From assembly GCA_033439265.1 (NCBI GenBank), contig JAVTVX010000017.1, positions 11,430,001-11,494,000 on the forward strand: a stretch of 64,000 nt of DNA, in the 5' to 3' direction. This DNA comes from Dillenia suffruticosa (Eukaryota > Streptophyta > Magnoliopsida > Dilleniales > Dilleniaceae). Below the pieces are notes generated by a model. The model made no database searches, had not been told where the DNA came from, and saw nothing but the letters and a program-made list of their open reading frames with translations. Positions 2,378 through 59,793 of this stretch are shown in pieces. Numbering within the stretch: the stretch's first letter is position 1; every line of letters starts with the position of its first letter. The position numbers and the translations under genes were made by a program.

Positions 2378-2565
2378 CAGTGAAGTAACCGGGCCGGGCC
2401 GGGCCGGGCCGGTTCAAGGTGGGTTCGAGGAACCGCGTGCCGGGCCGGCAGCGGTTCCTAGGCCAGTCCGGGCCGGGCCGGTTCCCAATTTTTTTCTTGT
2501 GGAACCGGCCCGGCCCGCTGAACCGGAACCTGCGGTTGCGGGCCGGGCCGGGCCGGGTTCGTTTT
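2378..2565. repeat. hAT-1 left subterminal GC-rich array
   Basis: Dense direct and inverted copies of GGGCCGGGCC and GGTTC/GAACC motifs lie directly inside the left terminus, in strong contrast to the AT-rich interior. In hAT elements the subterminal short repeats are the usual transposase binding sites, so that is the inferred role. The matching array at the other end is at 5610-5835. Confidence 0.7.
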
Positions 2566-2873
2566 TTTTTTTTTTTTCTTCTATTGCATTTTTCTAAATT
2601 TTTTTTGTAACTCTATTTTTTAACTCCATTTTTTTTAACTTTGTTTTTTTTTTAATTAACTTTTGATAATTCACTTGTAATTAAAAATTAGAGACATAAG
2701 ATTTTTAGAGTGGTTCCACTGAATTCGGTGTACGTCCACTACCAAGCTCATCACTTGGATTTTTAAATCCACTATTTTTTTTTACATTATTTTGATAATT
2801 ACATCACTTTGATTTTTTTTTCTATTTAAAATGACTTTTAAATAAAAGAAAAATATTAATATTAATATTATTA

Positions 2874-4892
2874 TTAATCTTCTTCTTCTTCAACTTCTTG
2901 TTCATCATCTTCTGAGATTTTGATAATTCCTTGCATTCTTTTTTCTGCATCCTTCCAATCTTTAATGCATATTAAAGTTTCTAAAGTGTCGTCCGCTAAA
3001 TTTGTACGTTTTTCGGTTAACACTCGACCACCTGCACTAAAAGCACTTTCGAATGGTACTGTAAATACCGGAGGGGTTAATACATCTTTAGCCACTTGGG
3101 CCAAAATTGGATAATACGATACATTATTTTTCCACCAACCTAATATATCATATAAATCTACATCATTAAAAACTTCTAATCTAGGTGTTTGTTTATATAA
3201 AAATAATTCATTAAATGATGATGATGAAGTTTTTTGTTTTTTTCCTAACATGTGTAAGGGATTAAATGAAAATGAAAATGATTGAATACTATTACTACTA
3301 CTATTAGCTATATTATTAGTATTTAAATTATTAATTTCCTTTTCATATAATTCAAATATTGATTGTAAAGTATGAGATGTTTGTTGTTTTAAAAAATGTG
3401 GGTTAATAGACATTTTTTATGGAAAAGCTTGTGCAAAACAATCTATTAACATTTCAGCACCTTCAATCTTAACACGTGGATCTAATGCACTTGCAACTAA
3501 ATATAAAATTGGAATTTCTTCATAATATTTTAAAAATTTTGTTTTCATTGAAAGAACAATTTCACCAAATTTTTCTTCATTTTCAAATTCATTAAATATA
3601 TAAATAATTTTACAAAGATTTGGTAGTATTAAATAAGTAGTTGGATAATAATATCCAAAAAATAAATTTGTACACAAATAAAAAATTTTCAATAATTTTG
3701 TAAGTGTAGACGCAAATTCAAAAGCGGTATTATCAATAAAACCATATTCGTAATTTGAATTTGTAAATTCAATTAAAATATTTTGAAAAGGAAGAACACC
3801 TTGTAACATGTTATATGTTGAATTCCACCTAATGTCACATTCCATTTTAAATTTTTTATATTTTTTGTTATGTAAAATACATAATTGTCTCATTTCTTTA
3901 GTTTTTACAGCAGAATTTCTTATTTGATGAATTAAATCGCTAATAGGTTGTAAAAATAGTTCTCTCATTGCTAAACCATCCTTAACACATAAATTAATTA
4001 TATGACATGCACATCTAACATGAAAAAAAGTTCCATTTAAAATTGTTTTTAAAGAATTTTTTAAACTATTAACCGCAGTAGTATTAGCCGAAACATTATC
4101 AAAGGAAATAGAAAAAATTCTATCACTTATTCCATAATCATAAACAACATTTGAAATTATTCTAGCTATATGTGCACTGGAATATGGAAATTCTCAATGT
4201 TGAAAAGTTAAAATTCTTTTTTGTAAAGACCATGAATTATTTATCCAATGACATGTTACTACAATATAATATTCTTTTTTATGCTCACTTTTTCAACTAT
4301 CCGAAATTAATGAAAATTTACATTGACTAGTCATAAATTCTGTAAGTATACTATTTTTTAATTCCTGATATCTATCTAATGATCTCCTCCTATCAGATTT
4401 TTTACTACTTTTTTTATAACCGGGTTGTAAATATTTTTGTACATATTCTTCAAATACAGGACATGCAACTATACTAAGTGGTAATTCTTTTCTTGCTAGC
4501 CATTCTATTTGTTCAATTTTTTCTTTATCCGAATTATATTTAAATGTACCAGTTATATTAGATTCTCCTGTAGAAATTTGTATTTGTTTTGTTTGTGATA
4601 ATTTATCTGGATGATTATTAATTAAGTGTCTCTTAAGTGTGCCTACCCCCCAACCTTTTAAAAATTTATATTTTTTATGACAAATTTTACAAATTGCTTT
4701 TTGTTCATCATTTTTTCTTTCAAAAAATGTCCATATATTAAAATCATTTTTTTTAGTTTGTGTTGTGTTAGATTCAGTGTTACTAGATTCAGTTTTTTCT
4801 AAAAAAGTTTCAATATCTATATGATCGGGAATTTCAAAAAATGGAGGAAGAGGAGATTGTTGAGAAGATTGTGAAGAATGTGTTCCGGCCAT
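2874..4892 (-). pseudogene. hAT transposase with three nonsense codons (hAT-1)
   Basis: One uninterrupted reading register of 673 codons from the ATG at 4890-4892 to the TAA at 2874-2876, broken only by stops at codon 200 (TGA, 4293-4295), codon 233 (TGA, 4194-4196) and codon 492 (TAA, 3417-3419). There is no frameshift. A BED zinc finger has C68, C71, H89 and H94. The first catalytic Asp lies in 'ISDS' just before the codon 200 stop, where the family has Trp. The second lies in 'SFDNVSAN'. The C-terminal hAT dimerisation domain shows 'WW', 'YP', 'FSAGGRV' and 'KDW'. The related copy at 56987-58984 has TGG at codon 233 and TTA at codon 492, so the stops are copy-specific. The full-length product would be a nuclear cut-and-paste transposase of about 672 residues. 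Confidence 0.9.
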
Positions 4893-5119
4893 TTTATAAA
4901 AAAAATTAAGATTAAAATTTTTAAAATAATATATAAGATAAAATTTTTTAAAGGAAATTTAAGATTAAAATTTTTAAAAAAATAATGCAAATGTAATGCA
5001 AATACAAAAAAATAAATATGCAAAAAATTTAAATGTACCGATTTGACGAATATCGCAATTGTTTTTCGCAAAATCTTGAATGAGCTCCCAACCTTGAAAT
5101 CTTCTCAAATCTTGATTAA

Positions 5120-5445
5120 TGTAGATAATGGGGTATAAGGTGATGAAATGGTGTAAATTTTGATGGAAATGGTGTAAAATTTGATGGAAATGGTATAAAA
5201 ATGGTGTAGGTAATGTGGTATAAGAGAATAGAAATGGTGTAGAAATTGGTGGAAATGTAAATAATTGTGGAAATGTAGATAATGGAGAAAATGAAAATGG
5301 TGTATAAGGTGATGAAATGGTGTAAAAATTGATGGAAATGGTGTAGGTAATAGTATATAAAATGATTGAAATGATATAAAAAATGGTAATATAAAGGAAA
5401 TAATAATGAGAGAATATAATAATATTGAGAGAATGTAGATGTGAG
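5120..5445 (-). repeat. Minisatellite-like leader of hAT-1
   Basis: Imperfect tandem copies of a 10-14 base unit, read on + as 'GGAAATGGTGTA' and variants such as 'GATGGAAATGGTG', fill the stretch between the TATA box and the transposase ATG. On the element's sense strand this is a C/T/A-rich leader. The hAT-2 copy has the same type of leader at about 56390-56520, so the repetition belongs to the family and is not a local accident. Long open frames read through it are repeat artefacts. Confidence 0.7.
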
Positions 5446-5493
5446 AGAGAAAGAGAGATTTTGTTGTGAAAATTTTGGAAATGGGGTATAAGG

Positions 5494-5501
5494 TATTTAT
5501 A
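5494..5501 (-). promoter_or_regulatory. TATA box of hAT-1 transposase promoter
   Basis: On the minus strand this reads TATAAATA in the context 'CCTATAAATACC', about 600 bases upstream of the transposase ATG. The same sequence and flanks are conserved in the diverged hAT-2 copy at 56278-56285. That supports a core promoter and not a chance AT run. Confidence 0.65.
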
Positions 5502-5609
5502 GGAAAATTTTTTGACCCTATGGACCAAAATAAGCTCAAAAGTAGCCGTTTTATAGCTGTTGGGAGGGATAAAATTGGAAAAATTTTAAAATTCAAAAAA
5601 AAAGGGGGA

Positions 5610-25085: not shown

Positions 25086-25560
25086 GCGGGGGGGGATAAC
25101 ACCATGCACCAATGTGACATTAGCAAACTCCCCGACATTTTAATATGAAAATTATTATATATATATATATATATATATCATATTATACTAAATTGAAAAT
25201 CTAAATCTAGATTAATTGATAGCTGACGAACTTTTTTGGGTAAAATTTGAAAAATTTATTCGGTATAATTGTTTGACACTTGTAATTCACTAATTTGTTT
25301 ATATTTAATGAAATTTTTTCATATATATATATATTTATATATTATATGACATGTCATATTTGGAGAGTATGAATTGGAATATAATATTGATTTGGGGAAA
25401 TGGGTTGGGAAGAGAGAGCTGGACAGGAGAGACAAAGCGGCGAGTCTTACCAGAGAACAAAGAGAAAGTTGAAAAGGGCATTTCACCGGCCAACCTAAAT
25501 CCAAAACTCCAAACCATGCCAAAACTAACCCTCCCAACACAAAACCAATGAACGTAAAAA
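22800..25560. other. AT-rich intergenic sequence without genes
   Basis: No gene seen. It contains long homopolymers: poly-T at about 24131-24155 and 25048-25084, and a C run near 24355-24370. A weak SINE-like stretch lies near 23715-23790 with a 'GAGATCGAGTTTAAGAA' B-box-like word. A (TA)n tract lies at about 25156-25178. Confidence 0.5.
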
Positions 25561-25599
25561 CACTAAATGGGCAAAAAATATAACTTAATACCGCAGGAC

Positions 25600-25660
25600 A
25601 GCCAGCATCACTCTCTCTCTCGCTATTTAACTCTCTCTCTCTCTCTCTATCTCTCTCAGT
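25600..25660 (+). promoter_or_regulatory. Probable promoter of the non-coding RNA locus
   Basis: A CT-dinucleotide stretch interrupted by 'CTATTTAA' at 25623-25630, a TATA-like word, is followed about 30 bases later by 'CTCTCTCAGTTTG'. Pyrimidine patches with a TATA-like box at this distance are typical of plant core promoters. The start site is inferred, near 25655. Confidence 0.4.
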
Positions 25661-25742
25661 TTGTAGCCCCCAGAAAGCAGACAAAACAAACAGAGAGTGA
25701 GAGAGAAAGCTGTGTTTTGCCTGTGCCTTTTTCTGCTGCAAA

Positions 25743-25937
25743 ATGGGTCTTCATCAACAAAACAATATGCTTTCTTCCTCCTCTTCCATTTTCAATTGCA
25801 AGACAACTGCCAATACCAGCACCAACACCACCACCACCATCGGCGGGAAAAATGACCAAAATGCCCTTTCCACAAGGGAGGTACAATCTGACCGTTTCGT
25901 AGTAAATCAGAGGTCGTTTTGTTGTGTTTCCAGATGA
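25743..25937 (+). CDS. Short upstream ORF in the non-coding RNA (64 codons)
   Basis: The first ATG after the presumed transcription start opens a 64-codon frame rich in Ser, Asn and Thr that ends at 25937, 67 bases before the miR160-like site. I recognise no family. It may be translated incidentally, and its stop upstream would leave the mimic site free of elongating ribosomes. Coding potential is unproven. Confidence 0.2.
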   Translation: MGLHQQNNMLSSSSSIFNCKTTANTSTNTTTTIGGKNDQNALSTREVQSDRFVVNQRSFCCVSR

Positions 25938-26004
25938 GGCATGCAATGCAGCTCTCTCTGTAAATCCCCAACCCTGATTTTGTGGAACCAAGGCATTTTA
26001 CCAA

Positions 26005-26028
26005 AGGCAGACAGGATGGAGCCAGGCA
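26005..26028 (+). promoter_or_regulatory. miR160 target-mimic site with 3-nt central bulge
   Basis: Seen: AGGCAGACAG (26005-26014), three extra bases GAT, then GGAGCCAGGCA (26018-26028). Removing the three bases leaves 21 positions complementary to miR160. All positions 1-11 pair, and mismatches occur only at 16 and 21. Because of the repeated G, the bulge can equally be drawn as ATG between miRNA positions 10 and 11, exactly at the Argonaute cleavage point. A perfect seed, a 3-nt central bulge and few 3' mismatches are the published rules for IPS1-type mimics. Confidence 0.8.
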
Positions 26029-26130
26029 TATATATTATATAGACTTTTCCTTTTTCATTTTCCTCTTCAGAAAAAAAAAAAGAAACCTTCTCTCTCATTT
26101 CATACCCTTTTCTTTCTTTTTGCTTTTCTT

Positions 26131-26167
<37 letters not shown>

Positions 26168-29100
26168 TTTTTATTTGCTCCTCTCTCTCTAGTGTTTTTC
26201 GAGTCGATCTTTGTCCTGGGTTTTCTTAGCAAAAAAAGAATTGGTAATCGATGATGGGGTATTTGTTATCATTCACAGAAGAAAAGTTCTTTTCTTTTAT
26301 GAAGCATATGGGCTTCCTTTGAAGTATGTACGGAATATTTCGTGATAATCAAAGGTTGTACTTTCTTTTAAATTCTTGTTTTTCTCATTCACCCTCCTTG
26401 CTATATTATGTACACATACGCACTGGATATAGAAAATTGTTCGCATTTGCGAGTATTTGCTCATTCTGCTAAATGTGAAGCTATTGCTAGAGCAATAAGG
26501 TTGGTTTTGGGTGTTTGAGACCATGACTGATATGGAAAGGATTAGGTTGAGGATTTAATTTTGACTCTTTAGAATTTCCATTTTTCTAAGTTGTTTGCTT
26601 TTGGGTTGCTAAAAAATAAGGGCTTTTGGAAAGTGCCTGGAATTAGTACCAATGCGTCTTTCTTCTTTTGTGCATGTTATTTATTTATTTATTTTTGGTT
26701 TGGGCACCATGCAAACTGGCTACTGGGGGGGATGTTTTAGGATGTTTTCCTAAATTTTGCTTATCAAATGGACTCAGGTTTGGTGTTTGATCTGAGTCTT
26801 ACTTTGACATCTCTGAGTAACTCTGGATCATTATTATTTTGTTTTTGCTTTTTTTTTTTTTCACTCACAATGTGAAAAAGATACAGAATCTGAGGATGTT
26901 CATCATTTTCCTGTCCTATTAATATATATATTTTTTTCTTTCAGTATCAACATCGATCGCACTAACTTGAATGGTAATCATACGGCAAATGAAACCTTGT
27001 AGAAATCAACTAAAACTTGCTTAGTTGGGTTCAATGATTCTATGCCTGGCAACTTGAAACCTTAGGCCTTTTGGTCTTATGATTCCGAAACATCAATAGA
27101 TGAGCTCATGTAGGCATCCTTTAGGGAATATGGTTTGGCCATTTGTAAGGCATAGGGGATTCCCATCTTCAATGGATACAATTATGAATAGCATTATCTT
27201 TGATCTGTGGATAACCGGCCTCTGTCTCTGCCATCTAGTTGAACCCTGTCTTGGTCCTGAATTCATGCAAGCTTCATCGAACTGGCTATAATTTGCCTTG
27301 TAGTTGGTACCGAATGCCTTGCTCTACACTTCATATACTTTCTTTAAAAATGTAGGTTATAACCCATGGTTGAACTTAAATCCCCAATAGAGGACGCCTT
27401 AGGTCTACTAATTGGCACTTTTTGCCATTTACTGGTGTCCTAGTTGATCTGCCTTCTTATGATTTAGGTCTCTCAACAACCAATCATTGCTTTTGTGTTT
27501 TTAGATGTAATTTCTATATCTATGAGAAAGTGAGAAAAGAAGATATGAAGATTGTGCAATTCAGAAGCACATCCAGAATGCTCTTTGGTGATTGCTAGTT
27601 GAAAAGCACACCGGACAAAAGCTTGCAGGTGGAAGAGTATAATGGATCTTAGCAATAGATCAAAAAGCTGCTTATGATTTATTCAAATTGTAGAGCTCCA
27701 GAATAATTAGATTAAATGATCCTATTGCTGTTGGTCATGGTGGTGCATAATCTAACTGCCAGAGGAGGCTGAAGCTGATGTAACCCTGATACGATGATCT
27801 GGCATAACTTTAGTCTTCTAAATCATTGTTTTTTCTTTTTTCCTCCTCACTATGCAGTCTAGAGCCTCTCACGTGATATGTCTGTGATCATTACCCAACG
27901 CCTTTGTGGTATTCATTGTGATGTGGCATTTAGTTCATAATATTACCAATCAGTGTCGAGCTTCCCTGCTGCACACACTGTCCAGAGTTGTGCCTCACAT
28001 GGCACCTGTGCTTCTACTTTCTCCGGAAGACACATTCAATCCTCATGATATTGAATTCACTTTGCTGGTGAGTGCCGGAAAACTTCCATCCTTTCTTTCT
28101 CATTGACTAGTTTATATGATATGCATTTGGGTTTACCATTTCAAGTTTCCAAAATAGAACATTGCTTTAATTAATGTTGTGGTAGCTTCTCCAGCTTCCT
28201 CAAGTATTATTGATGCAGAACTTAAATTCATTTATTGATGCTATTGCTGCTTAAGAATATTTAAGTAATGGTTTTAAAATTTCGTTGCTCATTGACGCAA
28301 TCTGCAATTGTGGTAACTGTCCTAATTTTAAAGTAATAAACGAAACATTATCAGAGGAAATTGATCTGTAATATAACATTTCATCATAGCTTGCAAGAGA
28401 AAAGATTGATAAAATAGTCATAAAGCTTGCCATAGTAGCCATCAGTGACAACTATTTTGCTGCTGTGGAGTGAATGGCATGGCTGATATTTTTTTATAGC
28501 AGCTGTAACTGACTGAGTATTTTTGTCTATTGTATGAAGTGCATTTATTTGAATTACAATCTTACATCTAGTAGCAGCAAAAATGCGACAAAGAAAAAGA
28601 GTGGCTGTTAGTTTTTGTTCAGAAATATAAGTTGTCATCTCCATTTCTGACATACTGTGGAATGGTGTTAATCTACTTAAATCATTCTCCATCTACTCCT
28701 TGCTCATATTTGCATATTCATTGCACTTGTCTATGCATAATGGTGTATATTACTTGATTATTGTCATGTATCTCTCATTTTCATCATGAAGGTAATGTGT
28801 TTACTGCATACTTAGCCCCAGTTTTGCTGCTGCAGATTTGGTTTATGATTGATCTATAAGCTTAACCCTTGACATTACTATAAACCTTAAGCTTTCAATA
28901 TTTGTTCTTTTGCCAAGTTTGAAAAACTATTTGGTTGGCACTTTTCTCCTTTCACGGAATAAAGCATCTTGGAGCAGACATATTTCATATTTCATTTTTC
29001 TTTGTTGGGGGTGTGGCAAGGGAGGAGTTATCTTTCTGATCTGGTGATTGCCCCCGCCCGGGGGGGGGGGGTTGGGTGTTTTGAATCCTGACATTCTTTG

Positions 29101-30419
29101 TAAGGTTGATGATACCTTATATTGCTACGGGCTCTCTTTTGGTTTTCCTCTTCAGGCAGGAAACTCTCTCTCTGAGATGTGCACGCACCCATTCTTTATT
29201 TTTGTTGCTAACAAAGGCCAACCCTCTGATGCCTGGGTTAGGTGAAATTCAAGTTAGTCGGTATTGATTTTTCAATCATTTTATATAAGTCCCCTTTACA
29301 GCGGATGTGTATCCAGTTCTTCACATATTAGTTTCATACATCACTCTCTTTGTTAATTTGAGGGGTTTCATTACAGCCGAATAGAGCTGGGACTTGCTTA
29401 GCTCTAGGTTGAGCATGAATGCGTGGATATTGTACTTTTTTTCCCCCTTTTTTCTTTGTTTTTTCCCCTCTTCATTCAATTTTGAACAGAATGATTTTAC
29501 ATCTGTTCTTATGCACTCCAGTCCATGAGGGTCTTCTCATGGTTAAAATCATTAGGATAGTCATATATTTGAATTATAGAGAACCAAATTCAAGAACATA
29601 TGATTGAAGTGAATACCGTTCTGAGCCTGCGGAAAACTGAAATCTTCATAAAGCACTAGACAACAAAAATTGTGGACTCTAATTTTTTAAGCAACTTTTC
29701 TTGCAATCATGCACCTTTTACATGCCAACCGTTGTCTAAGATGTTTAGTTTTGCCTGTATTATATACCGACATAGATACCTACATGACTTATGTTTTGTT
29801 CCGGAGGCTGGTCATCTCTAGTGGCCTAAATAATTGAACTGCAATTATAGGTCTCAAGGGGGAAGAGAGAAGAAATTTTGTTAATTGCAAGCATTAATAC
29901 TGACAAGGCCCATAGCTTGTAAAAGTAAAATTTGTTTTGCATATCATAATAATTTTGTGTTTACTCCCCTATTGATTTTCAGATCAACCACCTGGAGTTT
30001 GTTTTTTGTCCGGCAGAATGACTCCTTCCTCTAAATTTATGCCTCACTGTCTTGGTCTTTGTTGTGAAGCTGTTAACAGACATCTGCAAATGGCATTCTC
30101 TGACATCTTGTACCAAAGCTGTATTAATTATAAACATAAATGGAGAAGGGGCTTTTGCTTTTTTCCTTGAATAAGCATATGCCAGGTAGGCATCAGCTAT
30201 TACATTAGTTGGATTAAGAAAAAGAAAAGAAAAGAAAAGAAAAGAAAAAGGTTCAAGCCTCCCTGCCTGTTGGTCTATTCTGTCTTTTGTTCTGAGATCG
30301 GTTCCTCCCTCCCTTGCAAGCTGCATCATTTATTACATAGAAAATCATATTTCATTAAGTCAGCCATTGCAAATGTTGCAAATCATAAAAATAGATTATA
30401 AATTTAAGGACTTACTGCC

Positions 30420-32373
30420 TGGTTTAAGAGAGCCCTTTGCCTGGTATGCAACCTGGAAAATGGTAGAGATCATTTGTCAGGCTGCTTGCGGGCATGCCAT
30501 TGTTTACGTCTAAACTCCAAAATCATTGTTCTCGCACAATTTATCAACAATGCCACGCTTCGGCTTGGGTTGGTCTTAGATCGAAAAGCTTGATGACAAA
30601 TTCAATTGAGATTTTAATTAAAATGTTTAATATTAAATACATGTATTCATCATTTGTTTAGATGCTAAACCTAGATTATGTTTTGTGCAAGAAGATATAC
30701 AAGTGCCAAATCAAATAGCTCTATATGTTAATAATGGACAGGAGATGTTGACAAAAGGGGGCCAGGGGGCATTTCCCCCATATTTCTTTCAAACAATTGG
30801 ACAGTTAACAAAAGATGTATAATAATTTCTTTTAAGAAGAGTGGGAATAATTAATTAATTAATTAATTAATTATTTATTTATGATAAAAGAGTGGTAAGA
30901 GTGTTAGTCACTCTGTTCACATTTTTATTTGACCAAGAAAAAAGCTGGTATATATTATGCTATTTTTAGATTTTTATAATTATTTTTGGACTCAACACAA
31001 TATGATGCGGTAATTTTCTATTCATTATAACTAACGATTTATAGGTTATTAATTTTATTTATCTTACACCAAAATTATTCGGACATCAACAATAAAGATT
31101 TAGATTTTCGGCTCCAATATAATTGAATTTACACCATCTATGCAAAAATTGCTGAATTCACCTATACTAACCCTTGAGGACTGCAGATTTGTTATCCATG
31201 GTCGCTTTTAGGCCTAAGCTTGGTTGGGGGGTCCGAACATGAGTAAGAAATTTGGTTGTCATCTCAACCCAAAGTTTGGGTATTCATGATCGGTACAAGC
31301 TCTTTTTATTTTTTTATTTATTTATCGATATCTATAATTAATTTATTAATTTTTATTGATTTGAGTTGAGTTAACTATTGGTCCCAATCAAGGGCAAGCA
31401 CTCGACGCACCTCTTTTTAATATTTTTAAAACTCCGAACCCCAAAGCTTGGAAAAGCAAATTTAGTGGCCTGGTCAAGGCGTTGCTCAGTCTGAGCCTTT
31501 TTGTTCTTTCGAGCAAGCTGAGGTCAAAGAAAATATTCCTACCCAAAAAAAAAGGAAGTCAAAGAAAATATTGAGTCATGATTAAGAATCTATACCAACG
31601 TTTGGTGGTTTAATTAGTTTGAGAACTGATATCTCTTAATCATGTTCAGAATTTCAATCCCCTATAAATACGAAAAAATTAACGCTGAAAGACTTGCCCC
31701 CTTCAGGTTATACAACGGTCTGTTCAGATTAGTCAAAACGAAACTCCAGATATTGAATGATGACCAAATCAAAATACTAAAAAAAAAAAATGATTAAGAA
31801 TCTACCCCACTTATGGCTTAGGCCTAACTGGTGAGCCTAATTGGGGCATGGCATCAAAAAGGCAGGTTGCATCTATCAAGTTAGACGGTTGGTAGGGTTT
31901 GTGTTTAAATTTAATTGCTTCATCCTTCATAGAATATAGTTTTCATATATTGTTGGGTTACATTCACAATTTGAGTTGGGGTTGGGGTCCAAAATAAAAG
32001 TACGTTTTGCGGACCTTGCACGAGGACTAGAAATTCTCCAATTTAAGCATAGTTGCGTGGAATTAGGATTAGATCAATGACAGAGCGTTGGAAGAGTAGA
32101 GAGAGAGAGAGAGGTTAGTTTGGAAGCTGGTTTGATGGCTTTGAACTGCTCGGGATTTATGGTGCCTTCCCGCAAAGAAACCTTACTATTGAGGGTATTG
32201 CACCCTACTCTAGACGGGCCCTATCACCGCAGCACCGGAGAAGTATGGTTGCACATCAAGGCACTGGCTTTGAAGAGTTAGAGGCCGATGAAGTGAGTGC
32301 GGCTGAGCCTTCCCTAGCCCAAACTAAGGAAGAAAACGTTTGCATTAGGGGATCGTGGTCCTAAGTGTGATTA
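30420..32373. other. Intergenic sequence without supported genes
   Basis: AT-rich, with a TTAA repeat at about 30850-30872 and scattered tRNA-box-like words (for example near 31650) that may be SINE remnants. The last 245 bases (32119-32364) form an 81-codon open stretch of balanced composition on +, without ATG near its start, ending just before the gypsy LTR. I do not recognise it. Confidence 0.4.
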
Positions 32374-32871
32374 CGTTACAAAAGGCAGAAGAAAGAAGGA
32401 ATAGCAAGTGCTAGGAAGGAAAAACAGACAGGAAGGGAGCAGACTTCAGACTTCCGACTTCCAGAAACTAACGGCTACTGAAACTACTTCAACTAAACAC
32501 TCCAACAAACAACTGGTGTCCTAACTGATGTAGCAAATTGTCAACCCACAACAACTGAAATAACAGATTTGGTTAGAATGATCCAACAACCCAAATCACC
32601 ATTGTATAAATAGCATGTATGATGATAGAAGGATAAGGAAAAAATGTACATTTTTCTCTATCTTTGCTACTCTCTCCCTCTTTCTCTCCTCTTTCTCTTT
32701 CTCTCTCTCTCTTCTTTTCTCTCTCCTTCTTCTTCTCCTTTGCCTCTTCTCTGCATTCTTATCTTCATTTTCCCATGATCAACATTTCCAATACAAGCAT
32801 CAAACCTTATTTGCAGAAGTTGCTGTCAGAAAGAGCTTTATCATTTACTCTACCAATAGGATATTGTAACA
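32374..32871 (+). repeat. 5' LTR of gypsy element
   Basis: 498 bp. It contains 'TATAAATAGCATG' as a TATA-like core, followed by a long CT tract. The first base is C where the 3' LTR has T. I count about 19 substitutions plus a 14-base and smaller indels against the 3' LTR in the first 290 aligned bases, so the insertion is not recent. Confidence 0.9.
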
Positions 32872-32875
32872 AATT

Positions 32876-32885
32876 TGGTATCAGA
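32876..32885 (+). promoter_or_regulatory. tRNA-iMet primer binding site
   Basis: TGGTATCAGA begins four bases after the 5' LTR. It is complementary to the 3' end of plant initiator tRNA-Met, the usual primer of this group. Confidence 0.8.
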
Positions 32886-32903
32886 ATTGAAAGATTTTTG
32901 GAC

Positions 32904-33968
32904 ATGGTAGAAGGAACAAGATCCAAAACTCTCAAGAAACAAATCAAGAAGCAGGAAGCTAGAATTCAAGAACTAGCTATTGAACTCTATGAAAAGCAGA
33001 TTGAATTGGGACGGAATTTTAAGGAACAGAACAAAAAGCTTGAAGACCACCACAAGAAACTTGAGGAACAAACAGCATAATAGATAATCTAGTGTCTACT
33101 ATGGATGAGAAACTCAATACCATTATGCAAAAGATGAATAAAGAAAGAACAGAAGAATCAGAAATCGAGAGAATGCATAGATCTCCCATATTGCCTACTA
33201 TAACAGACGAAAGAGTGAGAGGAGATGCAATGAACATGATAAACAAGAAAGATTCTATTGTTAAAGTAAACTTTCTTAATCTACTTAGAGTGGAGTTGCC
33301 CATGTTCAATGGAGACAACCTCCGAAGTTGGTTAAGGAAATACATGAAGTTCTTTTTTGTTTGTTAGATTTCTAGTCAAGTATGGGTGGACACTATCGAG
33401 ATATACTTGGATGGCAAAGTAGAAATTTGGTTCCAAAGAGTGAAAATGGTGAAAAAGGAAGTGGAATGGGAGGAATTTGCCAGCCTACTATGTCAGTGAT
33501 TTGAAGACAAAGGATTGCAAGATGAGATAAAATAATTTAACAAGTTACAGAAGATTGGAACAGTTGCTGAATACCAAGAGAGGTTCGAGGAATTATGGTC
33601 CATACTGCTCTATAAGAATCCCAATTCACTAAGTCATATTTTATATTCAGTTTTATAAGTGGGGTTAAGGAAGAAATCAAGCCAACTTTGAGGATGTTTA
33701 AGCTTACTACTCTAGTACAAGCATATGAAATAGCCATACTTCAAGAGCAATACTTAGAACTCAGTAAAATAAAGGAAGGAGGAGTAAGCAAGAGCTGGGA
33801 ACTGAATAATTCTAAAAAGGATCTGAAAAGAGAACTGGCCAAAGGAAAAACTTGCGTTAGGGAAGCTGCTGACAACAAGACAACAAAAATATCTTCCCAG
33901 GGGATGCAATTTAGGAGGGCCAACAATTTAGATTTTAGATGCAGAGAAAATTACACACCTGGACATTA
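32904..33968 (+). pseudogene. gypsy gag-like region, broken
   Basis: Starts at the ATG 32904 with a Lys/Glu-rich coiled-coil-like stretch of about 58 codons, then a stop. The register resumes with the retrotransposon gag pattern 'LPMFNGDN..SWL', a 'W.......EF' stretch and 'Y...FEELW'. Several in-frame stops and at least one frame change follow. No intact CCHC knuckle is visible. It would have formed the particle coat. Confidence 0.8.
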
Positions 33969-33993
33969 GTGCAGACTCAGAACTCTTAACTTA

Positions 33994-36900
33994 ATGATTA
34001 TTGTAGAGGATGAGGAGGAGGCGGGCTCAAATTCAGAAATTGCAAGCCCCAAAGAACATGCAGAGTTACCAGGTGAGGTGTATGACATTCTTTTATGTGT
34101 TGTCTCTAATTCTCTTGAAAGAAAAACTATAGCTATACAAGGAACTATAGGGGAATTGACAATAGTCATATTGGTGGATATTGGAAGCTCCAGCAGCTTC
34201 TTGAATCTGACATTGGTTGAAGAAATGAACATAAAGCTAGAAGTGGCAGAACCTTTACATGCTATAATGGCAGACGGGACTAGGATAAACAGCTACACCA
34301 AAATGAAAGGAGTAAAGTGGAATATACAAGGTTATACTTTTTCCTTTGATTTAAGGGTGATTCAATTAGGTGGATGAGATATTATACTTGGAGTGGACTG
34401 GATGTATAATTTTAGCCCTATAATATTTGACTTCAAATTACTATAAGTGAGGATAGCTAGGGAAGAAGGAGAAGCAGTCCTAATGGGAATGGTGGAAGGA
34501 TCCAAAATGAAGTTGATTCATAGTAAAACTACTAAGAAATTTAGGAGTCAGCAGCTGCAGAGCTATGTAACACTATCCCTGCCTAGAGGAGAAGGACAAA
34601 ACATAGCACCTCCAGCTATTACTGAACTTCTACAACAATTTGTAGATGTCTTTGCAGTTCCTAACACATTACCACCTAAAAGATCCTATGACCATTCGAT
34701 TCCTCTTAAGCAAGAGGCATAACTTTTAAACTCCCTCCCTATAGTTATCCACATTCACAGAAGGCTGAAATAGAAAAATAAGTGCAAGAAATGAGGAATA
34801 ATAGGGTTATCAGACATAGCAATAGTCATTTTGCTTCTCCTGTGCTGCTAGTTAGAAAGAAGGATAATACACAAAGATATTGTGTAGACTATAAGCAACT
34901 CAACAGCCTCACCATCAAAGATAGATACCCCATTCCTAATGTCAATGAACTGCTGGATGAATTACATGGTTTTTCATTGTTTTCTAATATTGATCTTAGG
35001 TCGGCTATCACCAAATAAGAGTCAAACCTTCTGATATAGCTAAAACAACCTTTCAGACCCATAATGGATATTATGAATTTCTGGTCATGCCATTTGGCTT
35101 AACTAATGCACCAGCAACTTTCCAAGCACTCATGAACCATATCTTTCAGCATCATCTTAGAAAATTTGTTTTTGTTTTCTTTGATGATATACTCATTTAC
35201 AACTCGGACATGTCTACTTACTTGGGACATCTTAGAGAAGTCGTATTAATTCTTAGACAATATCAATTGTTTGCCAAACTCTCCAAATACACATTTGCTC
35301 AGCCTTAAGTTGAGTACCTAGGCCACATAGTATCTAAGGCAGGGGTTGGATCTTCAGAAGGTTGAATGTATTATGAATTGGTCAGAACCTACTTCTGTTC
35401 AGGCTCTAAGAAGTTTCTTAGAACTGGCGGGGTATTATAGAAGATTTATCAAGCACTATGGACTAATCATTAGGCCTTTGCATAACCTGCTTAAAAAGGA
35501 TAGCTACAATTGGAGTAATGAAACTAGGCTAGCATTTCAAAGTCTCAAAGAAGCTGTTAGTTTAGCTCCTGTGATGAGGTTGCCTGATTTTTCTAAGCCA
35601 TTCATTTTAGAGATTGATGCATGTTCTCATGGATGGGGGACTGTTCTCATGCAAGAAGATAACTTATTGCCTTCTTAAGCAAAGCAATATGGCCAAAGAG
35701 CTTAGGACTCTCCATATATGAGAAAGAGCTGATGGTAATGGTGATGGCGGTTACAAAATGGAGACATTATTTGGTGGGTTACCATTTTATCATCATAATA
35801 GATCACCATAGTTTAAAGTATTTGCTAGAGCAAAGATTAACCAACACTTTACAACACAAATGGCTTACTAAGTTATTGGGGTTAGATTATGAAATATAGT
35901 ACAAGAAAGGGATAGAAAAAGGGTGGTTGATGCACTGTCTAGAAGAGAAAATGCAAAAAGAGATCAAAATGAAAGAATACTCAGGGCGATTACTTCAGTA
36001 CAGCCCCAATGGATTACAGAAGTGCTTCAGAGTTATGAAGAGGATCAGGATTGCCTAACATTGATTGCAAAACTTACATCAGATCCTGAATGTGAACCAG
36101 AGTTTCAACTGCAGAATGTGATTATTAAGTTAAGAAGGAAGATATATGTGGGCAGCGGAGGAAATATTAGGTGCAAGATACTGCAACGATGCATAGTTCT
36201 GCAATAGGGGGATACTAAAGACAATATGGTACTCTTCAGAGAGTAAAAACTGCTTTTTATTGGCCCTCAATGAAGACAGCAGTGGTGAAATTTATCCAAG
36301 AATGTGAGGTCTGTCAGTAGAATAAATATGAGAATGTGCCATACCTGGGCTTATTGCAACCTCTACCTATTCTTATGCAAGCTTGGTCTCAAATAAACAT
36401 AGACTTTGTAGAGGGACTACCTGCATCTGAAGGTTACAATACCATTCTAGTAGTAATCGACAGACTCACAAAGTTCAACCATTTCATAGGTTTACAGCAT
36501 CCATGCACTGTACTCAAAGTTGCACAAGTGTTTGTAGATCAAGTTTTCAAATTGCATGGACTTCTTGATTCCATTATGACAGATAGGGATAGAGTTTTTA
36601 CAAGTTTATTTTGGCAAGAGCTCTTCAGATTAGTGGATACTCAATTGAATCTAAGCAGTGTTTATCATCAAACTGATGGCCAAAGTGAGAGGTTAATTCA
36701 GTGCGTAGAGTGTTACTTAAGGTGCATGACATCTGACAGGCCAGGACCCTGGTACAAGTGGCTTAGTTTTGGTGAATGGTGGTATGATACCACTTATCAG
36801 ATGACCTCTTTTGAGGCATTGTATGAGTATCAACCTAAGTCTATTCCTTGGGGACCATATTATGATATAGTCACTCCAACAACAACAAATTTTGTGCAAC

Positions 36901-37370
36901 ATAAGCAAGCGATTTTGCAGATTTTGAGGGATCATTTAGCAAAAGCACAAAATAGAATGAAGTTGAGGGTTGATCAAAATAGAATTGAGAGGGAGTTTGC
37001 AGTAGGAGATTGGGTCTATCTTAAACTCCAACCATACCGACAGCAATCAGTGGAACTTAGGAAACAATTGAAGTTATCTTCCAAGTTCTATGGCCCATTC
37101 CAAGTTATAGATAGGATTGGAAAGGTGGCTTGTAAGTTGCAACTTCCACCAGGCTCAAAGATTCATCCTGTATTTCATGTATCGATACTCAAAAGATAGG
37201 TAGGACCTAAGCAGAAGGTTATGCCTACACTACCTCTCATCGGAATAGATAAACAAGCCTTGGTAAAACCAGAAGCTATCTTGAGGAGACGTGTAGTTTT
37301 GAGGAATAATCGACCTACCACTTAATGGCTAATTCGTTGTTTCCTATCTTTCATCCTTGAGGACAAGGAT
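33994..37370 (+). pseudogene. gypsy pol region: protease, RT, RNase H, integrase, chromodomain-like tail
   Basis: Protease near 34170 with 'VDIGSSSS' where an active site would read D-S/T-G. RT at about 34780-35330 has 'VDYKQLN', 'MPFGLTNAPATFQ' and 'FFDDILIY' (normally Y/F-x-DD); a one-base deletion near 35000 breaks the frame before the conserved 'YHQIR' block. RNase H lies at about 35500-35890. The integrase core at about 36370-36960 keeps its acidic residues in 'NIDFVEGLP', 'MTDRD' and 'TDGQSE', but the HHCC finger is destroyed. After 'HPVFHVS' a degenerate chromodomain-like tail with 'PEAILRRR' and 'EDKDDF' runs to about 37370, pointing to a chromovirus. The integrase segment is open for 287 codons, the best-preserved part. 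Confidence 0.9.
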
Positions 37371-37390
37371 GATTTCAAAGGGGCGGGATA

Positions 37391-37696
37391 TGTTACAAAA
37401 GGTAGAAGAAAGAAGGAACAACAAGTGCTAGGAAGGAAAAATAGACAGAAAGGGAGCAGACTTCAGACTTCCAACTTCCAGAAGCTAACGGCTACTAAAA
37501 TTACTTCAACTAAACACTCCACAAATAACTGGTGTCCTAACTGATGTAACAAATTGTCAACCTACAACAACTGAAATAACATATTTGGTTAGAGTGATCC
37601 AACAATATAAATAGCATGTATGATGACAGAAAGGATAAGGAAAAAAAATGTACCTTTTTCTCTGTCTCTGCTACTCTCTCCCTCTTTCTCTCTCTG

Positions 37697-37728
<32 letters not shown>

Positions 37729-37887
37729 TCTTTTCTCTCTCCTTCTTCTTCTCCTTTGCCTCTTCTCTGCATTTTTATCTTCATTTTCCCATGATCATCA
37801 TTTCCAATACAAGCATCAGACCTTATCTACAGAAGTTGCCGTCAGAAAGAGCTTTATCATTTACTCCACCAACAGGATATTGTAACA
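37391..37887 (+). repeat. 3' LTR of gypsy element
   Basis: 497 bp, starts TGTTACAAAAGG and ends TTGTAACA, with the same domain layout as the 5' LTR and a longer CT tract. It is preceded by the polypurine tract and followed by TATTA. Confidence 0.9.
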
Positions 37888-37959
37888 TATTATTAAACCT
37901 TTTGGTAGATCCATGGTCCATATTTTTCTGAAACAAAACCTTCAAACAAAAAAGAAGTG

Positions 37960-39153: not shown

Positions 39154-42100
39154 ATGTTAGATTTATTTTATATTGCGGAAGCGTGGAAAAAATCACAAAA
39201 AATAAATAAATCGGATTTTCCAGATAGTATCTCGATGCGCTGTTTTCCAAAAATCTAAATCATGAACATTCTCGAACAAATTGTACGGCTGAGAAGATGA
39301 CCACGAAAAACGAACTATCATTACAATTTCATGATGTCTCAACCCACAATTCGGTGAACCACAAACAATACGAAAAAAATTCTTTATTCAACATTTTCTC
39401 AATACTTTCATTATTTTTTTTTACAGAAGAATGTGCATCTTTCAAAAATATGTCTTAATCTCTTTTTTTCAGCCAATGTGTAGGGAATTTGTTTTTCCTT
39501 TTTCCCAAAGAGAATTCAATCACTCACGTAAGGTAAGATATTACATGATATAGGAGAGAGAAAAAGAGATTTTAGGAGAAGTTTTTGTGATTTGAGGATA
39601 ATGGATTAACTATCCATTATTTTCCAATTAAGATTTAAATAAATTTAAATCATTTTGCCCCTTTTCTTGTGATAAATAAAAAATCTCATGGATATATTTT
39701 ACTGGCATCTCCTACTTGTACATGAAAACATTTTATATCCATCACAAGATCATAATTCATGTGATCTTTCACATCACGCTACTGGATTTTCATGCAGGGA
39801 TAGGAGCCGTGAGACCGGTGAGTACACCTGCAATCAAAAAATTCTTGATGCATCTTTTAGAATGACTGAGAAGTCACCGTTAGTATCAAATAACTCATTA
39901 TACCCCAAACTCAACACATTACATCTATCGAATCACTTTTCTCATAGAAAATGATCATCAATCGTTACTCGACTGTATATTCACTATTATATTTGAATCC
40001 CAACATGGATAAATATAATAGGCAGACCAGTGAATATAACACAACAACGTGATATCGATTGGTTTTCCTTTTCCCTATTAGAATCTATCGATTTCAATTC
40101 AATTGTTTTTCTAAACTTGCCCCGTAGGCCTCACTATCTCCCATACCATTGGTAAGCAGACTAAACTAATATACATTGAGCCAAAAATTCAAAAAACAAC
40201 CATAAGTGATAAGGGTACAATTAAGCCCATCTAAGGGGTCTTGAGTCACATCGTGGGGTGGGGATCAAGATTATATCATCGTCTCATATAATAGTTCCAA
40301 CTATCCCATAGTCGATTTATCATATGTGGTATGAAACGCGTGTCAAAGTGTTATTTCCTAATTTCTCAAAAAAATAACATATGTCAGATTTCTCTAACAC
40401 CGTGTATGTATGAAACTTAGTCTACATATAAGACTTTACTCAAAGAAAAGAATATCTCATAAATGATATTACTAGATGCAAATGATATCTGAGATCTCAA
40501 AACTGATTACTTACAAGCAATACGGACGTGGGTGTGTTCATGTCGGTCATATCGCATATGACTTCATTTTGAATATGTATCAGAGTGATTTATATTCTAA
40601 TAGGGTCACTCTCAAAATCTCTTACATCTAGAAATCGTCTCATTTCCACTCACTTAGAGCTGGAAGTGGTCATTCGTGTAAGAGAGTCGACCACATCTGT
40701 CTGATATATCCTTTTATTACATTATGTTTAAAAAATATGATAATAAATAAGTACAATAAATAAATTAGTTCAAAATATAACTGAATAATACACATATATC
40801 ATATATAATAAATATCAAAACATCAATCTGGTATGTAATGAAAAATGTTAAAATACATGTAAACCCAATGACTATCTTTATCTTACAAAAAAATCTCTCG
40901 TAATGGGTTTTGCGAAGGTGTCAGCCACCATACTATGTATGAAAATATACTTGATCGTTACTTTACCCTTCCCGATAATGTTTCTCATAAAATTGTATCT
41001 AGTATCAATATATTTGATCCTACAATGATACTTAGGTGCCTTAGATATAGCCAATAGCGATCTGATTATCATAATAAATCATCACTGACCTCTTATTATC
41101 TGTTAAAATCCTTAAGTCATCCAGAAATCTTCGAAGTCAAAAACTCTCATGAATTTCTATTGAATATGCTACAAACTTAGTCTCCATCGTAGATAAAGAT
41201 ACACATATTTGTTTTTTGCTGCTTTAAAATATGACACTGTTATTGTGCAAGAAAACAAAATATGATGTCAATTTTCATTCATCAAAATCGCTGCCCCATT
41301 CAATATATGAATACCCAATGAGACACTAATCACTTCCTCAATAACACAATGAGAGATTCGTAATTTTCGTGAAATATCTCAGAATCCTTTTTACTATTTT
41401 CTAGTAACCTCTTTTAGTATTCGATTGATATTTATTCACCAGACTGATTGCAAAACAAGTGTATAGTCGTGTACACAATATCACGTATATCAGGCTACCT
41501 ACTACATTGGTACAAGAGATTTTAGTCATCTCCTTAATTTTTTCCTGAGTTTTAGGACATATATCAAAACTTAAACCTTTACCTTTAGTGATGAAAGTAT
41601 TTATAGAATTGCAATCGCCCATCCTGTAGCGCTTGAGAATCCTTTTGATGTACGACTTTTGTGAAAGAGCCAACACCCGTTTCAAATGATCCCTCTAAAT
41701 CCAAACTTTGATAATGAACTCTGCCTCACCCATGTCATTCATATGAAAACTCGACGATAACTATGTTTTGATGGTTATCAGATATCCCTGTTGTTCCTAC
41801 TCAACAAATATTATCCACATATAAGGATATGATCACAGAGGAGTTAATAAAATATATTAAACACATACAATGATCCTCCTCAATCATTACGAAACCATAA
41901 TATATCACCTCTTCATGAAATCTTAGATACCATTGCTTGGATGATTGCTTGTGACCATATATCGACTTTCAAAATCGACAAACTATCTCTTCTTGACCCA
42001 TAGGAACAAAACCAGATGGCTTTATCCAAACTTCTATTTAGGAAATAGTTTTGATATCTATTTGATATATAATTCTAAATCCATATTTACGACAATCGCT

Positions 42101-43470
42101 AAAAATAAACGACTCGAGATAAATTTGACTGTAGGGGAGAAAGTCTCCTCGTCGTCAACACCTTTCAGCCGAGTGTAACCTTTCATTACCAGATAAGACT
42201 TATACCTCTCCACTGATCCGTCAATTTTTCTCTTGATTTTGAGAACCCACTCGTTCTCAATGGTATGCAAATTAACTAAATCTGAGACCTCATTGATTTT
42301 CATAGACTCCAACTCCTCTTCTATGGTCTTCAACCAATGGACCTTCGTAGGACCTTCAAGAGCCTCCTAGACTGTTTCGGGCTTTTTATCCTTTCCAGGA
42401 GTCACAATGAGGGGTCTCACCTGGGAAATGACATTTAGATACGTATTCTCGATTGCTCCTACCAGGAGGGGTAACCTCTTCACCTTTGTAGGGATCACTT
42501 CTATTAGAACCAAAATCCATAATGGGTTCTTAGGTCCTGTCACGATACTCAATTTTAGTGACAATGTCATTTGTATGCTTACCTAAAAACACGTACCCTT
42601 AGAGTGTTCTGAATATCTTATATATCCTTTCTTGCGGGTCTAACTTGCCATATGGATGCAATGAATCATAAACATATGCGACATATCCCCATGGCTTCAA
42701 GTGGTTGACGTTAGATTGCCTCCATATCCAAAGCTCATACGGGGTACTGATTCCAGACCTTGATGGGATATGGTTGAGCATGTAGGATATAGTCAATAAA
42801 GCATTGATCTGCGCTATCTAGATATCACCACATCCAACAAACTCCTATTTTTTCTCTCGGCAACTCCATTCTGTTGAGTAGTAGTAGGAATAGTCAACTA
42901 TATCGTAATACCCTTCTTGAAATAAAACTTTTTGAATTGTTCAGCCAATTAAATACTTGTACACCCGATCGGTTTTGAGAGTTTTCACACTTAAATTTAA
43001 CTGATTTTCAATTTCGTTAATAAACCTCCTAAAGTATTTCAATGCCTTAGACTAGTACAAGATCAGATAGATATAACCAAAATATATGTAATTGTCTAGA
43101 AACGTAACAAAATACACAGTTCAATTTTGAGTTCTAATGTTCATAAGGCTACGATATCAGAATTGACCATTTGCAATAGAGTCCCAGCGTTCATTATCTT
43201 ACCAAATGGTTTTCTCATGGCTTTGTTAGGCAAAACTCACATACAGGCAACTCAACATTGATTAGCATGCCCAACAAACCACTCGCAGCTAATCATTTCT
43301 TGCCCTATGTGTCCAAATCTACTACGCCATACATTTACATTATCATCAATACAATCAAATATAAAGGCAATAAAAGAGAAACATGAATCGCCATTAACGA
43401 AATAGCATCCGGTGTATACAATCTAATATGGATAAAACCATAATAAATCAAAGAATTGTCATAGTGCAAC
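39154..43470 (-). mobile_element. Ty1/copia retrotransposon, decayed, minus strand
   Basis: Fragments of a copia polyprotein lie in consistent order on minus from about 43330 (GAG-pre-integrase) to 40878 (RNase H end). The 3' LTR probably occupies part of 39154-40800; the outer edge begins TGTTAGATTTATT on +, with the 'TTGCGGAAGCG' word often seen at copia LTR ends. I could not find a matching 5' LTR or a target duplication, so the outer limits are tentative. Confidence 0.7.
40878..43340 (-). pseudogene. copia polyprotein remnants
   Basis: On minus, from 5': a GAG-pre-integrase pattern 'RFGHIGQEM' near 43320-43250, an integrase C-terminal piece 'LNHIPSRSG..PYELW' (42599-42796), RT start 'NEWVLKIKRKIDGSVERYKSYLVMKGYT' in part (42058-42333), RT end 'KSYIKRILKRY' and 'VGSLIYVI' (41401-41685), and an RNase H tail 'KYIDTRYNF' with 'MVADTFAKP' (40878-41072). 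The order integrase before RT identifies Ty1/copia. Stops and frameshifts break every segment. The catalytic Y-x-DD block of RT is not intact. Confidence 0.85.
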
Positions 43471-55935: not shown

Positions 55936-56277
55936 ACAAAAATTAATTTTAATGGTATATAATGTCAAACATTAATATGAAATTTCTCCTGTCTCTGCTA
56001 GAGATGTGCTCGGTCCGATTTGGACTCGAAAACCGGCCCAGCTGGCCCTAAAAAGCCCGGCACATGAATCGGACCGGAGCTACAGTAACCCAGCCCGGCC
56101 CTAACCGGGAATTGTAGCGGTTCGGGCTGGTTCAACCGATTTTGGAATAGGGAACCAGCCCGGCTGGTTCCAACGGTTCTTTTTTTTTTGATTTTTTTTT
56201 TGAATTTTATCTCTCCCAACAGCTATAAAACTGCTATTTTTGAGCTTATTTTGGTCTATAAGGTCAAAAAATTTTCC

Positions 56278-56285
56278 TATAAATA
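56278..56285 (+). promoter_or_regulatory. TATA box of hAT-2
   Basis: TATAAATA within 'CCTATAAATACCTTA', the counterpart of 5494-5501 in hAT-1, with conserved flanks on both sides. Confidence 0.6.
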
Positions 56286-56986
56286 CCTTACACCCTATTT
56301 CCAAAATCTCCACAACAAAATATTTATCTCTCTCTCACATTTACATTTTCTCAATATTACAACATTCTCTCAATTTTCATTAATATTTCTATTATCATTT
56401 CCTTTTCACCATTATTACAATTCTCTATATCATTTTCATTACCATTTTTTATACCATTTCTACCAATTTCTACACCATTTCCATTATCATTTCTACCATT
56501 ATCTTTATTTCTATCATTTTATTCATTAAACACATTCTCAAATTTGTATTTTAAATTTTTGTGAAACCCATTGACTCAGTAAACAATGACATAACATGTT
56601 TATGAAAGTTCTATATGGGGGCAACTAATTGTCGAAGGAAAGAAATATTTCAGCAAGGACAAACAAGCTCCACCTCTTACCTAAAAACTTTCCTGGTATT
56701 TTTGCTAGAGAACGGTTTGGGTGGAGAATAGAGAATTATAAATTTTCTACGACCTTCAACATTGATCAAGATTTGGTAAGATTTCAAGATTGAGAGTTCA
56801 AATTCAAGATTTTGCAAAAAACAACTATGATATCCGTCAAGTCGGTACATTTAATTTTTTTGCATCTTTATTTTCTTGCATTTGTATTACATTTGCATTA
56901 TTTTTTAAAAATTTAATCTTAAATTTCATTTTAAAAATTTAATCGTATATTTTATTTTGAAAATTTATTCTTAATTTTTTAATAAA

Positions 56987-58984
56987 ACGACCGAAACACA
57001 CTCTTCCCAATTTTCTCAACAATCTCCTCTTCTTCTATTTTTTTTCAAGATGAAATTCTTGAAAATGTATATATTGAAACGCTTTTGGAAGAAACTGAAT
57101 ATAGTAACACAAAATTTAATACAATACGGATTAAAAAAGATGATATTAATATATGGATATTTTTTGAGAAAAAAATGATGAATAAAAAGTAATTTGTAAA
57201 ATTTGTCATAAAAAATATAAATTTTTGAAGAGTTGGGGGTAGACACACTTAGAAGACACTTAGTTAATAATTATTCAGATAAATTATCACAAACAAAATA
57301 AGAATAAATTGCTATAGGAGAGAGTTAATATATCTGATACTTTTAAATATAATTCGGATAAAAAAAAATTAGACAAATAGAATAGCTAGCAAGAAAAAAA
57401 TTACACTTAGCATAGTTGCATGTCCCGTATTTGAAGAATAAGTATAAAAATATTTACAATCCGGTTATAAAAATAGTAGTAGAAGATTCGGTAAGAGGAA
57501 ATCATTAGGTAAATATCAAGAATTAAAAAATGATATAATTACACAATTTATGACTAGTGATTGTAAATTTTCATTAATTTCGGATAGTTGAAAAAATGAG
57601 CATAAAAAAGAATATTATATTATAGTAATATGTTATTGGATAAATAATTCATGATTTTTAGAAAAAAGATTTTAGTTTTTCAATGTTGGGAATTTCGATA
57701 TTTCGGTACACATATAATTATAATAATTTTAAATATTGTTTATGACTATGGAATAAGTGATAGAATTTTTTCTATTTCATTTGATAATATTTCGACTAAT
57801 ATTACTGCGGTTAATAGTTTAAAAATTTTTTTAAAAATAATTGTAAATGAAACTTTTTTTCATATTAGATGTGTATGCCATATAATTAATTTATGTGTTA
57901 AGAATGGTTTAGTAATGAGAGAACTATTTTTAAAACCTATTCACGATTTAATTTATCAAATAAGAAATTCTTCTACAAAAATCCAAGAAATTAGACAATT
58001 ATGTATGTTATATAATAAAAAATATAAAAAATTTATAATAGAATGCGACATTAGGTGGAATTCAACATATGACATGTTACAAGGTGTACTTTCTTTTCAA
58101 ACATTTTAATTGAATTTACAAATTCAAATTACGAATCTAATTTTATTGATAAAACCGCTTTCGATTTTGCATCTACACTTATTAAATTATTGAAAATTTT
58201 TTATTTATGTATAAATTTATTTTTCGGATATTATTATCCAACTACTCATTTAATGTTACCAAATCTTTGTAAAATTATATATATATTTAATGAATTTAAA
58301 AATAAAAAAAGATTTGGTAAAATTATTCTTTCTATAATTTTTTTTTAAATATTATGAAAAAATTTCAATTTTATATTTAGTTGCAAGTGTATTAGATTCA
58401 CATGTTAAGGTTGAAGGTGCTGAAATGTTAATAAATTGTTTTGCATAAACTTTTCCATTAGAAGTGTCTATTAATCCATATTTTTTAAAATAACAAATAT
58501 TTCATACTTTATAATCAATATTTGAACTATATGAAAAGGAAAATAATAATTTAAATACTAATAATGTAGGTAATAGTAGTAATAGCATTCAATCATTTTC
58601 ATTTTTATTTAATCTCTTACACATGTTAGGAAAAAAGTAAAGAATTTTATTATCATCATTTAATGAATTACTTTTATATAAACAAATATCTAGATTAGAA
58701 AATTTTGATGATACATATTTATATGATATATTAGGTTGGTGAAAAAATAATATATCGTATTATCCAATTTTGGCCTGGTTAAAAATGTACTAACCCCTTC
58801 GATATCTATAGTGCCATCAAAAAGTGCTTTTAGTGTAGGTGATCGAATGTTAACCGAGAAATGTATAAATTTAGCGGACGATACTTTAAAAATCTTAATT
58901 TATATTAAAAATTGGAAGGATACAGAAAAAAGAATGTAACGAATCATCAAGATTTCGGAAGATGATAAACAAGAAATAGAATAA
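56987..58984 (+). pseudogene. hAT-2 transposase, broken
   Basis: Aligns from end to end with the hAT-1 transposase. The start codon is ACG at 56987-56989 where hAT-1 has ATG. The BED finger region (about 57190-57290) and later parts contain frameshifts and many stops. The best-preserved part is 57651-58109, with 'SFDNISTN' and 'CHIINLCVKNGL'. The C-terminal dimerisation region lies at about 58700-58920, and the frame ends at TAA 58982-58984. Far more decayed than hAT-1. Confidence 0.9.
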
Positions 58985-59793
58985 TAATAATAATAATAAT
59001 AATAATATTTTTTTTTTTGGTATAAAAATCATTGTAAATAGAAAAAAATCAAAATAATGTAAAAATCAAAATAATATAACAAAAAAAAAAATTAGTGGGT
59101 TTTAAAATCCAAATGATGAGCTTGGTAGTAGACGTATACCGAATTCGGTGGAAGCACTCTAAAAATTTTGTGTTTCTAATTTTTATTTTTTTTTATAAAA
59201 AGTGAATTAAAAAAAATAAAATGATTAAATAAATCATTACAAGAAAGTAAAAAAAACAACAAAGTTTAAAAAAATGGAGTTATAAAAATAAAATAAAATT
59301 AAAAAATAGAGTTACATAAAAAAGAGAGTTAAAAAAATACAATAGAGAGAAAAAAAATTTTAGGCCAAACCAGGCCCGGCCCGGCCCGGTTTGAACCGGC
59401 CAGCCGGTTCCTGTTCAGCGGGCCGGGCCTGTTTAACTAAAAAAAATTTTGGAACCGGCCCGGACTGGCTTAAGAGCCACAGCCAGCCCGGCCCATGGTT
59501 CCAGGAACCACCCTTGAACTGGACCGGGCCTAGCCCGGCCCTACCCGGTTACAACTCTAGTCTCTGCTCATCCATATAACTAATCATCCAATAGCATCAA
59601 TCAACTAATGATTCAACAACAACAACTAATTATTTTAACAATGTTAAGAGTCACAACAACAACAGTATCAACAACAACAATATCAAGAGTCACAATGTTC
59701 AAATGTAATAATTAAATTAACAATGTTTATTGTTTAGGTAACCATGTTCAAATGTAACCATCAAATAACAATAAATAGTATCAAGAGTCACTA

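Follow-up and report, generated by a model that had tools for sequence, protein, structure and literature searches.

A predicted target mimic of miR160 in a probable non-coding transcript of Dillenia

Described miR160 decoys and the Dillenia site

The principle of target mimicry is illustrated by the Arabidopsis IPS1 RNA, in which a 3-nt bulge opposite the cleavage site of miR399 prevents cutting (PMC6162444). Endogenous target mimics (eTMs) of miR160 are described from Arabidopsis, which has a pair of them, eTM160-1 and eTM160-2 (PMC11353855), from rice (osa-eTM160, 688 nt) and from Brassica rapa (bra-eTM160-1 and bra-eTM160-2, 530 and 464 nt, respectively) (PMC9975556). According to the excerpted text of this last source, a review, overexpression of eTM160 in rice brought miR160 down and ARF18 up, an effect that a mutated version did not have, overexpression of bra-eTM160-2 in B. 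rapa lowered miR160 and raised ARF10/16/17, and overexpression disturbed anthers and fertility in both rice and Brassica (PMC9975556). An Arabidopsis eTM160 construct knocked down miR160 in potato (PMC6018911). In longan, where an eTM was defined by a 3-nt insertion between miRNA positions 10 and 11, four miR160 eTMs have been predicted (Unigene11608, 56365, 64827 and 66891) (PMC4633511).

A site of the same kind is found in the Dillenia DNA analysed here, a stretch of 64,000 nucleotides that is referred to as the window.

26005..26028, + strand: miR160 target-mimic site, AGGCAGACAGGATGGAGCCAGGCA (24 nt), assessed by pairing, chance and permutation tests

Based on the arrangement of its bases, this site is probably (roughly 0.6) an endogenous target mimic of miR160 (eTM160) that lies in a probable non-coding + strand transcript. 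Decoys of the eTM160 kind are already on record for Arabidopsis, rice and Brassica; the Dillenia site is an additional predicted case, most likely a new predicted member from the Dilleniaceae or close kin. It shares with the Arabidopsis, rice and Brassica eTM160s the same miRNA and the same kind of decoy, but those are measured transcripts whereas the Dillenia site is predicted from DNA alone. With the predicted longan eTMs it shares the 3-nt insertion at positions 10/11; in the excerpted text, however, three of the four longan eTMs are transcripts of protein genes (two of them antisense to the coding region) and the fourth is an unknown mRNA, while no protein gene was recognised at the Dillenia locus (PMC4633511). 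Compared with IPS1/miR399, the bulge principle is the same but the miRNA and the pathway (phosphate, PHO2) differ, and function is demonstrated for IPS1, as excerpted, and predicted in Dillenia.

The proposed mechanism begins with a probable Pol II transcript of the + strand that would start near position 25655, carry the mimic site about 350 nt in and hold no recognisable protein frame; we infer that the site is transcribed and retained in the mature RNA. AGO1 loaded with miR160 would bind the sequences on both flanks of the bulge and so may be captured, and the three unpaired bases opposite the cut position would block slicing. Because the bulge would block slicing, it is proposed that miR160 would be retained on the RNA and kept from its ARF10/16/17-class targets, the mRNAs of which would be spared and the ARF genes thereby de-repressed. 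If expressed, the locus would extend the miR160 decoys of Arabidopsis, rice and Brassica to the Dilleniaceae or their close kin (Dilleniales), and the question of whether eTM160 sites are conserved or repeatedly arise anew could be put to a further, independent lineage. Since overexpression of eTM160 affects anthers and fertility in rice and Brassica, such a decoy, if expressed, would also bear on auxin-controlled reproduction.

No Dillenia decoy was named among the literature matches listed, which does not establish its absence in print, and no comparable site was found in the excerpted text on the lncRNAs of plum (PMC6371585) and hickory (PMC9130753). The cotton transcript TCONS_00807084 is given as an eTM of miR160 in the excerpted part of a review (PMC9975556), but as a putative miR160b precursor in that of the source paper (PMC6888562).

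Pairing geometry and chance expectation

The miR160 sequence used as the query agrees both with a printed Hevea miR160/ARF duplex (PMC3368772) and with a longan primer (PMC4633511). The letters GGAGCCAGGCA likewise occur in print, in the ARF site of the former and in the primer of the latter (PMC3368772; PMC4633511), and as the complementary sequence in the excerpt of a published table, under an entry named miR160.

On the + strand, miRNA positions 1-10 are paired by 26019-26028 and position 11 by G26015, and the intervening three nucleotides (ATG, 26016-26018) form a bulge that faces miR160 positions 10/11. Across positions 12-21 there are eight pairs out of ten, the only mismatches being at positions 16 and 21, and there are no G-U pairs. 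The sequence-only reading had counted pairs at positions 1-11, three unpaired bases and then 8 of 10 pairs with mismatches at 16 and 21, which is correct; its placement of the bulge between positions 10 and 11 is also confirmed, although the bulge can be drawn equally well between positions 11 and 12. The three bulged nucleotides also spell an ATG in a strong start context (AGGATGG), and this ATG opens a tiny frame, MEPGIYII followed by a stop, at 26016-26042.

The published eTM rule specifies, besides an RNAhybrid P-value, a bulge of 2-4 nt opposite miRNA positions 9-12, perfect pairing at positions 2-8, at most four mismatches with at most two consecutive, and an energy below -25 kcal/mol. 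At 26005-26028, pairing is perfect at positions 2-8, the target bulge within positions 9-12 is 3 nt long (at 10/11 or 11/12), the two mismatches are non-adjacent and the duplex energy is -34.5 kcal/mol (ViennaRNA duplex folding). The same calculation gives -45.4 kcal/mol for a perfect site, and -28.8 kcal/mol for the best duplex elsewhere in the window (12,792 tiles).

The window was scanned on both strands with 27 miRNA families, using perfect pairing at positions 2-8, a 3-nt bulge at positions 9-12 and at most four mismatches; the miR160 site was the sole match. Sequence simulated to the composition of the window (200 Mb, first-order Markov, both strands) contained no miR160 sites with up to three mismatches, one with four and nine with five. 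When permuted miR160 sequences were run against the window, one of 40,000 reached two mismatches and a further six in 40,000 had a best of three. By calculation, at most 1.6e-5 sites with up to two mismatches are expected per 64 kb, and at most 0.13 per 500 Mb; for up to three mismatches these upper bounds are 2.1e-4 and 1.6, respectively. Simple chance at the scale of the window is rejected on the scan of 27 families, the simulation, the calculated bound and the permutations, and 26005-26028 is a statistically solid target-mimic site at the sequence level.

The bounds also show that, improbable as a chance site is in the window, a large genome could have a lucky one. The alternative that survives best, in itself unlikely, is that the locus has the geometry of a mimic but is inert, being untranscribed, spliced out with an intron, or present in an RNA that is too scarce or too folded. 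It draws on the expectations of 0.13 and, with up to three mismatches, 1.6 per 500 Mb, but has against it the window expectation of at most 1.6e-5; the remaining evidence on it comes from the sequences around the site.

Transcription, splicing and accessibility

The features that bear on whether a transcript would carry the site are as follows.

25623..25630, + strand: TATA-like box, CTATTTAA, flanked by CT-rich tracts, read from the sequence
25881..26070, + strand: candidate intron, with approximate scores of 6.3 (donor) and 6.6 (acceptor)
26001..30000, + strand: T-rich stretch; of 32 bins, the two with the lowest AT skew fall here

The TATA-like box is 374 nt upstream of the mimic site and from it a + strand transcript start near 25655 may be read off, which would place the site downstream of the putative promoter and so argues against an inert locus. 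The T-richness of 26001-30000, to which T runs such as that at 26108-26164 contribute, fits + strand introns or untranslated RNA. A scan with a bacterial-type promoter model was set aside, as the model is inapplicable to plants.

The splice signals point the other way: excision of the candidate intron would remove the mimic site, and another candidate acceptor, 26010, falls within it. Their weight against the decoy is lessened by the scoring, which uses approximate frequencies and does not separate the strands. The counts of well-scoring sites, 21 donors and 21 acceptors on the + strand and 25 and 19, respectively, on the - strand, also speak against the decoy in that the + strand is not favoured. 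An inert site would also be consistent with the predicted accessibility. The cost of opening the mimic site is 12.4 kcal/mol, higher than for 93% of the 103 surrounding 24-nt windows, and this poor predicted accessibility counts against the decoy reading. Compared with shuffled sequences, the + strand around the site shows no gain in fold stability (z -0.33).

The earlier proposal of a miR160 target mimic in a long non-coding RNA is supported in part: the geometry holds and is not due to chance at the scale of the window, and the lack of a credible protein frame is supported as far as the frames were searched (below). The promoter and splice signals that it invoked are weak overall: the TATA-like box, the CT-rich tracts and the T-richness are present, but the splice counts do not favour the + strand, and use of the candidate splice sites could take the mimic site out or interrupt it.

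Other identities of the locus and its neighbourhood

The search of 25300-30600 against Rfam, on both strands and at E values up to 10, gave no match to the miR160 precursor family; the eight matches that it did give are to other families and each stays below the gathering score. A MIR160 precursor is rejected on this result. The best unbulged miR160 site anywhere in the window has eight mismatches and a cleavable miR160 target of the ARF10/16/17 type is likewise rejected. The locus is thus not recognisable as a MIR160 gene, and it is not an ordinary target either. When the window was compared with itself, no repeats of at least 60 bases were found to cover the mimic site.

A relic, whether it stems from a fragment of an ARF10/16/17 gene or from a MIR160 locus that has decayed, could be mimic-like without being a mimic. 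The frame 25964-26251 reads GRQDGARH across the site, where the bulge supplies an additional codon, and this is close to the ARF motif GIQGAR, which makes a relic of an ARF gene possible. The flanks, however, show no resemblance to ARF by eye, and for a decayed MIR160 locus the lack of an Rfam match is joined by a - strand fold that is only modestly more stable than shuffled sequences (z -1.68). A relic is regarded as improbable.

The coding potential around the site was assessed from its reading frames, among them the following.

25743..25937, + strand: upstream reading frame of 64 aa, from the first ATG after the putative transcript start, in a strong start context

None of the 44 frames of at least 50 aa in 25300-31000 (26 on the + strand and 18 on the - strand) reached the Pfam cut-off, the weak matches all being below it and the lowest E values being 0.0026 (25322-25750, - strand) and 0.0071 (25667-25852, + strand). 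Homology was searched with six of the 26 + strand frames, taken unspliced, in a database that includes proteins of Dillenia and many other plants; the six frames joined as one query had 1422 candidates, none of them at E values up to 1. A protein-coding exon at the site is rejected as far as Pfam (44 frames) and homology (six + strand frames) reach, and the statement in the sequence-only reading that there is no credible protein frame is supported to the same extent.

The 64-aa frame could nevertheless belong to the mRNA of a small unannotated protein, with the mimic site in its 3' untranslated region, as its stop is 67 nt ahead of the site and its start is well placed. This is very improbable: the frame has no Pfam family and no homologue in the protein database, where no candidate shared even three words with it, and frames of at least this length are opened by 6 of the 99 ATGs in a comparable context (A..ATGG) on the + strand. 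Least probable of all is a two-function transcript, with the 64-aa frame upstream and a second start at the bulge ATG, in which ribosomes that pass the site or start at that ATG could strip off miR160, so that translation would turn the decoy on or off.

The surroundings of the predicted eTM160 locus include a gene and several mobile-element-like sequences.

~7.8-14.7 kb, - strand: exons of a chloroplast adenylate kinase, by homology to Dillenia turbinata proteins
2468-5583 and 56196-59468: hAT-like element, present as two copies in inverted orientation, ~50 kb apart
32372-37891: LTR retrotransposon, with direct repeats near 32372-32875 and 37389-37891 that are 91-92% identical
40881-42817, - strand: broken frames resembling a copia-type polyprotein by eye

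The joined adenylate kinase exons are 95% identical (228/241, 13 differences) to a Dillenia turbinata protein; for a second protein of that species the identity is 88%, and the next full-coverage match, among the best 120 of 2207 proteins, is at 72%. The gene identifies the plant family, and its 13 differences point to a different species within it or to a paralogue. This gene provides a synteny anchor for the locus. The arms of the hAT-like copies are 72-90% complementary, in pieces among the matches listed, and a hAT dimerisation domain is present at 2874-3416 on the - strand. The LTR retrotransposon begins ~2 kb past the T-rich stretch and contains, between its LTRs, a match to SH3_Tf2-1 and a match to an aspartyl protease that is below the cut-off.
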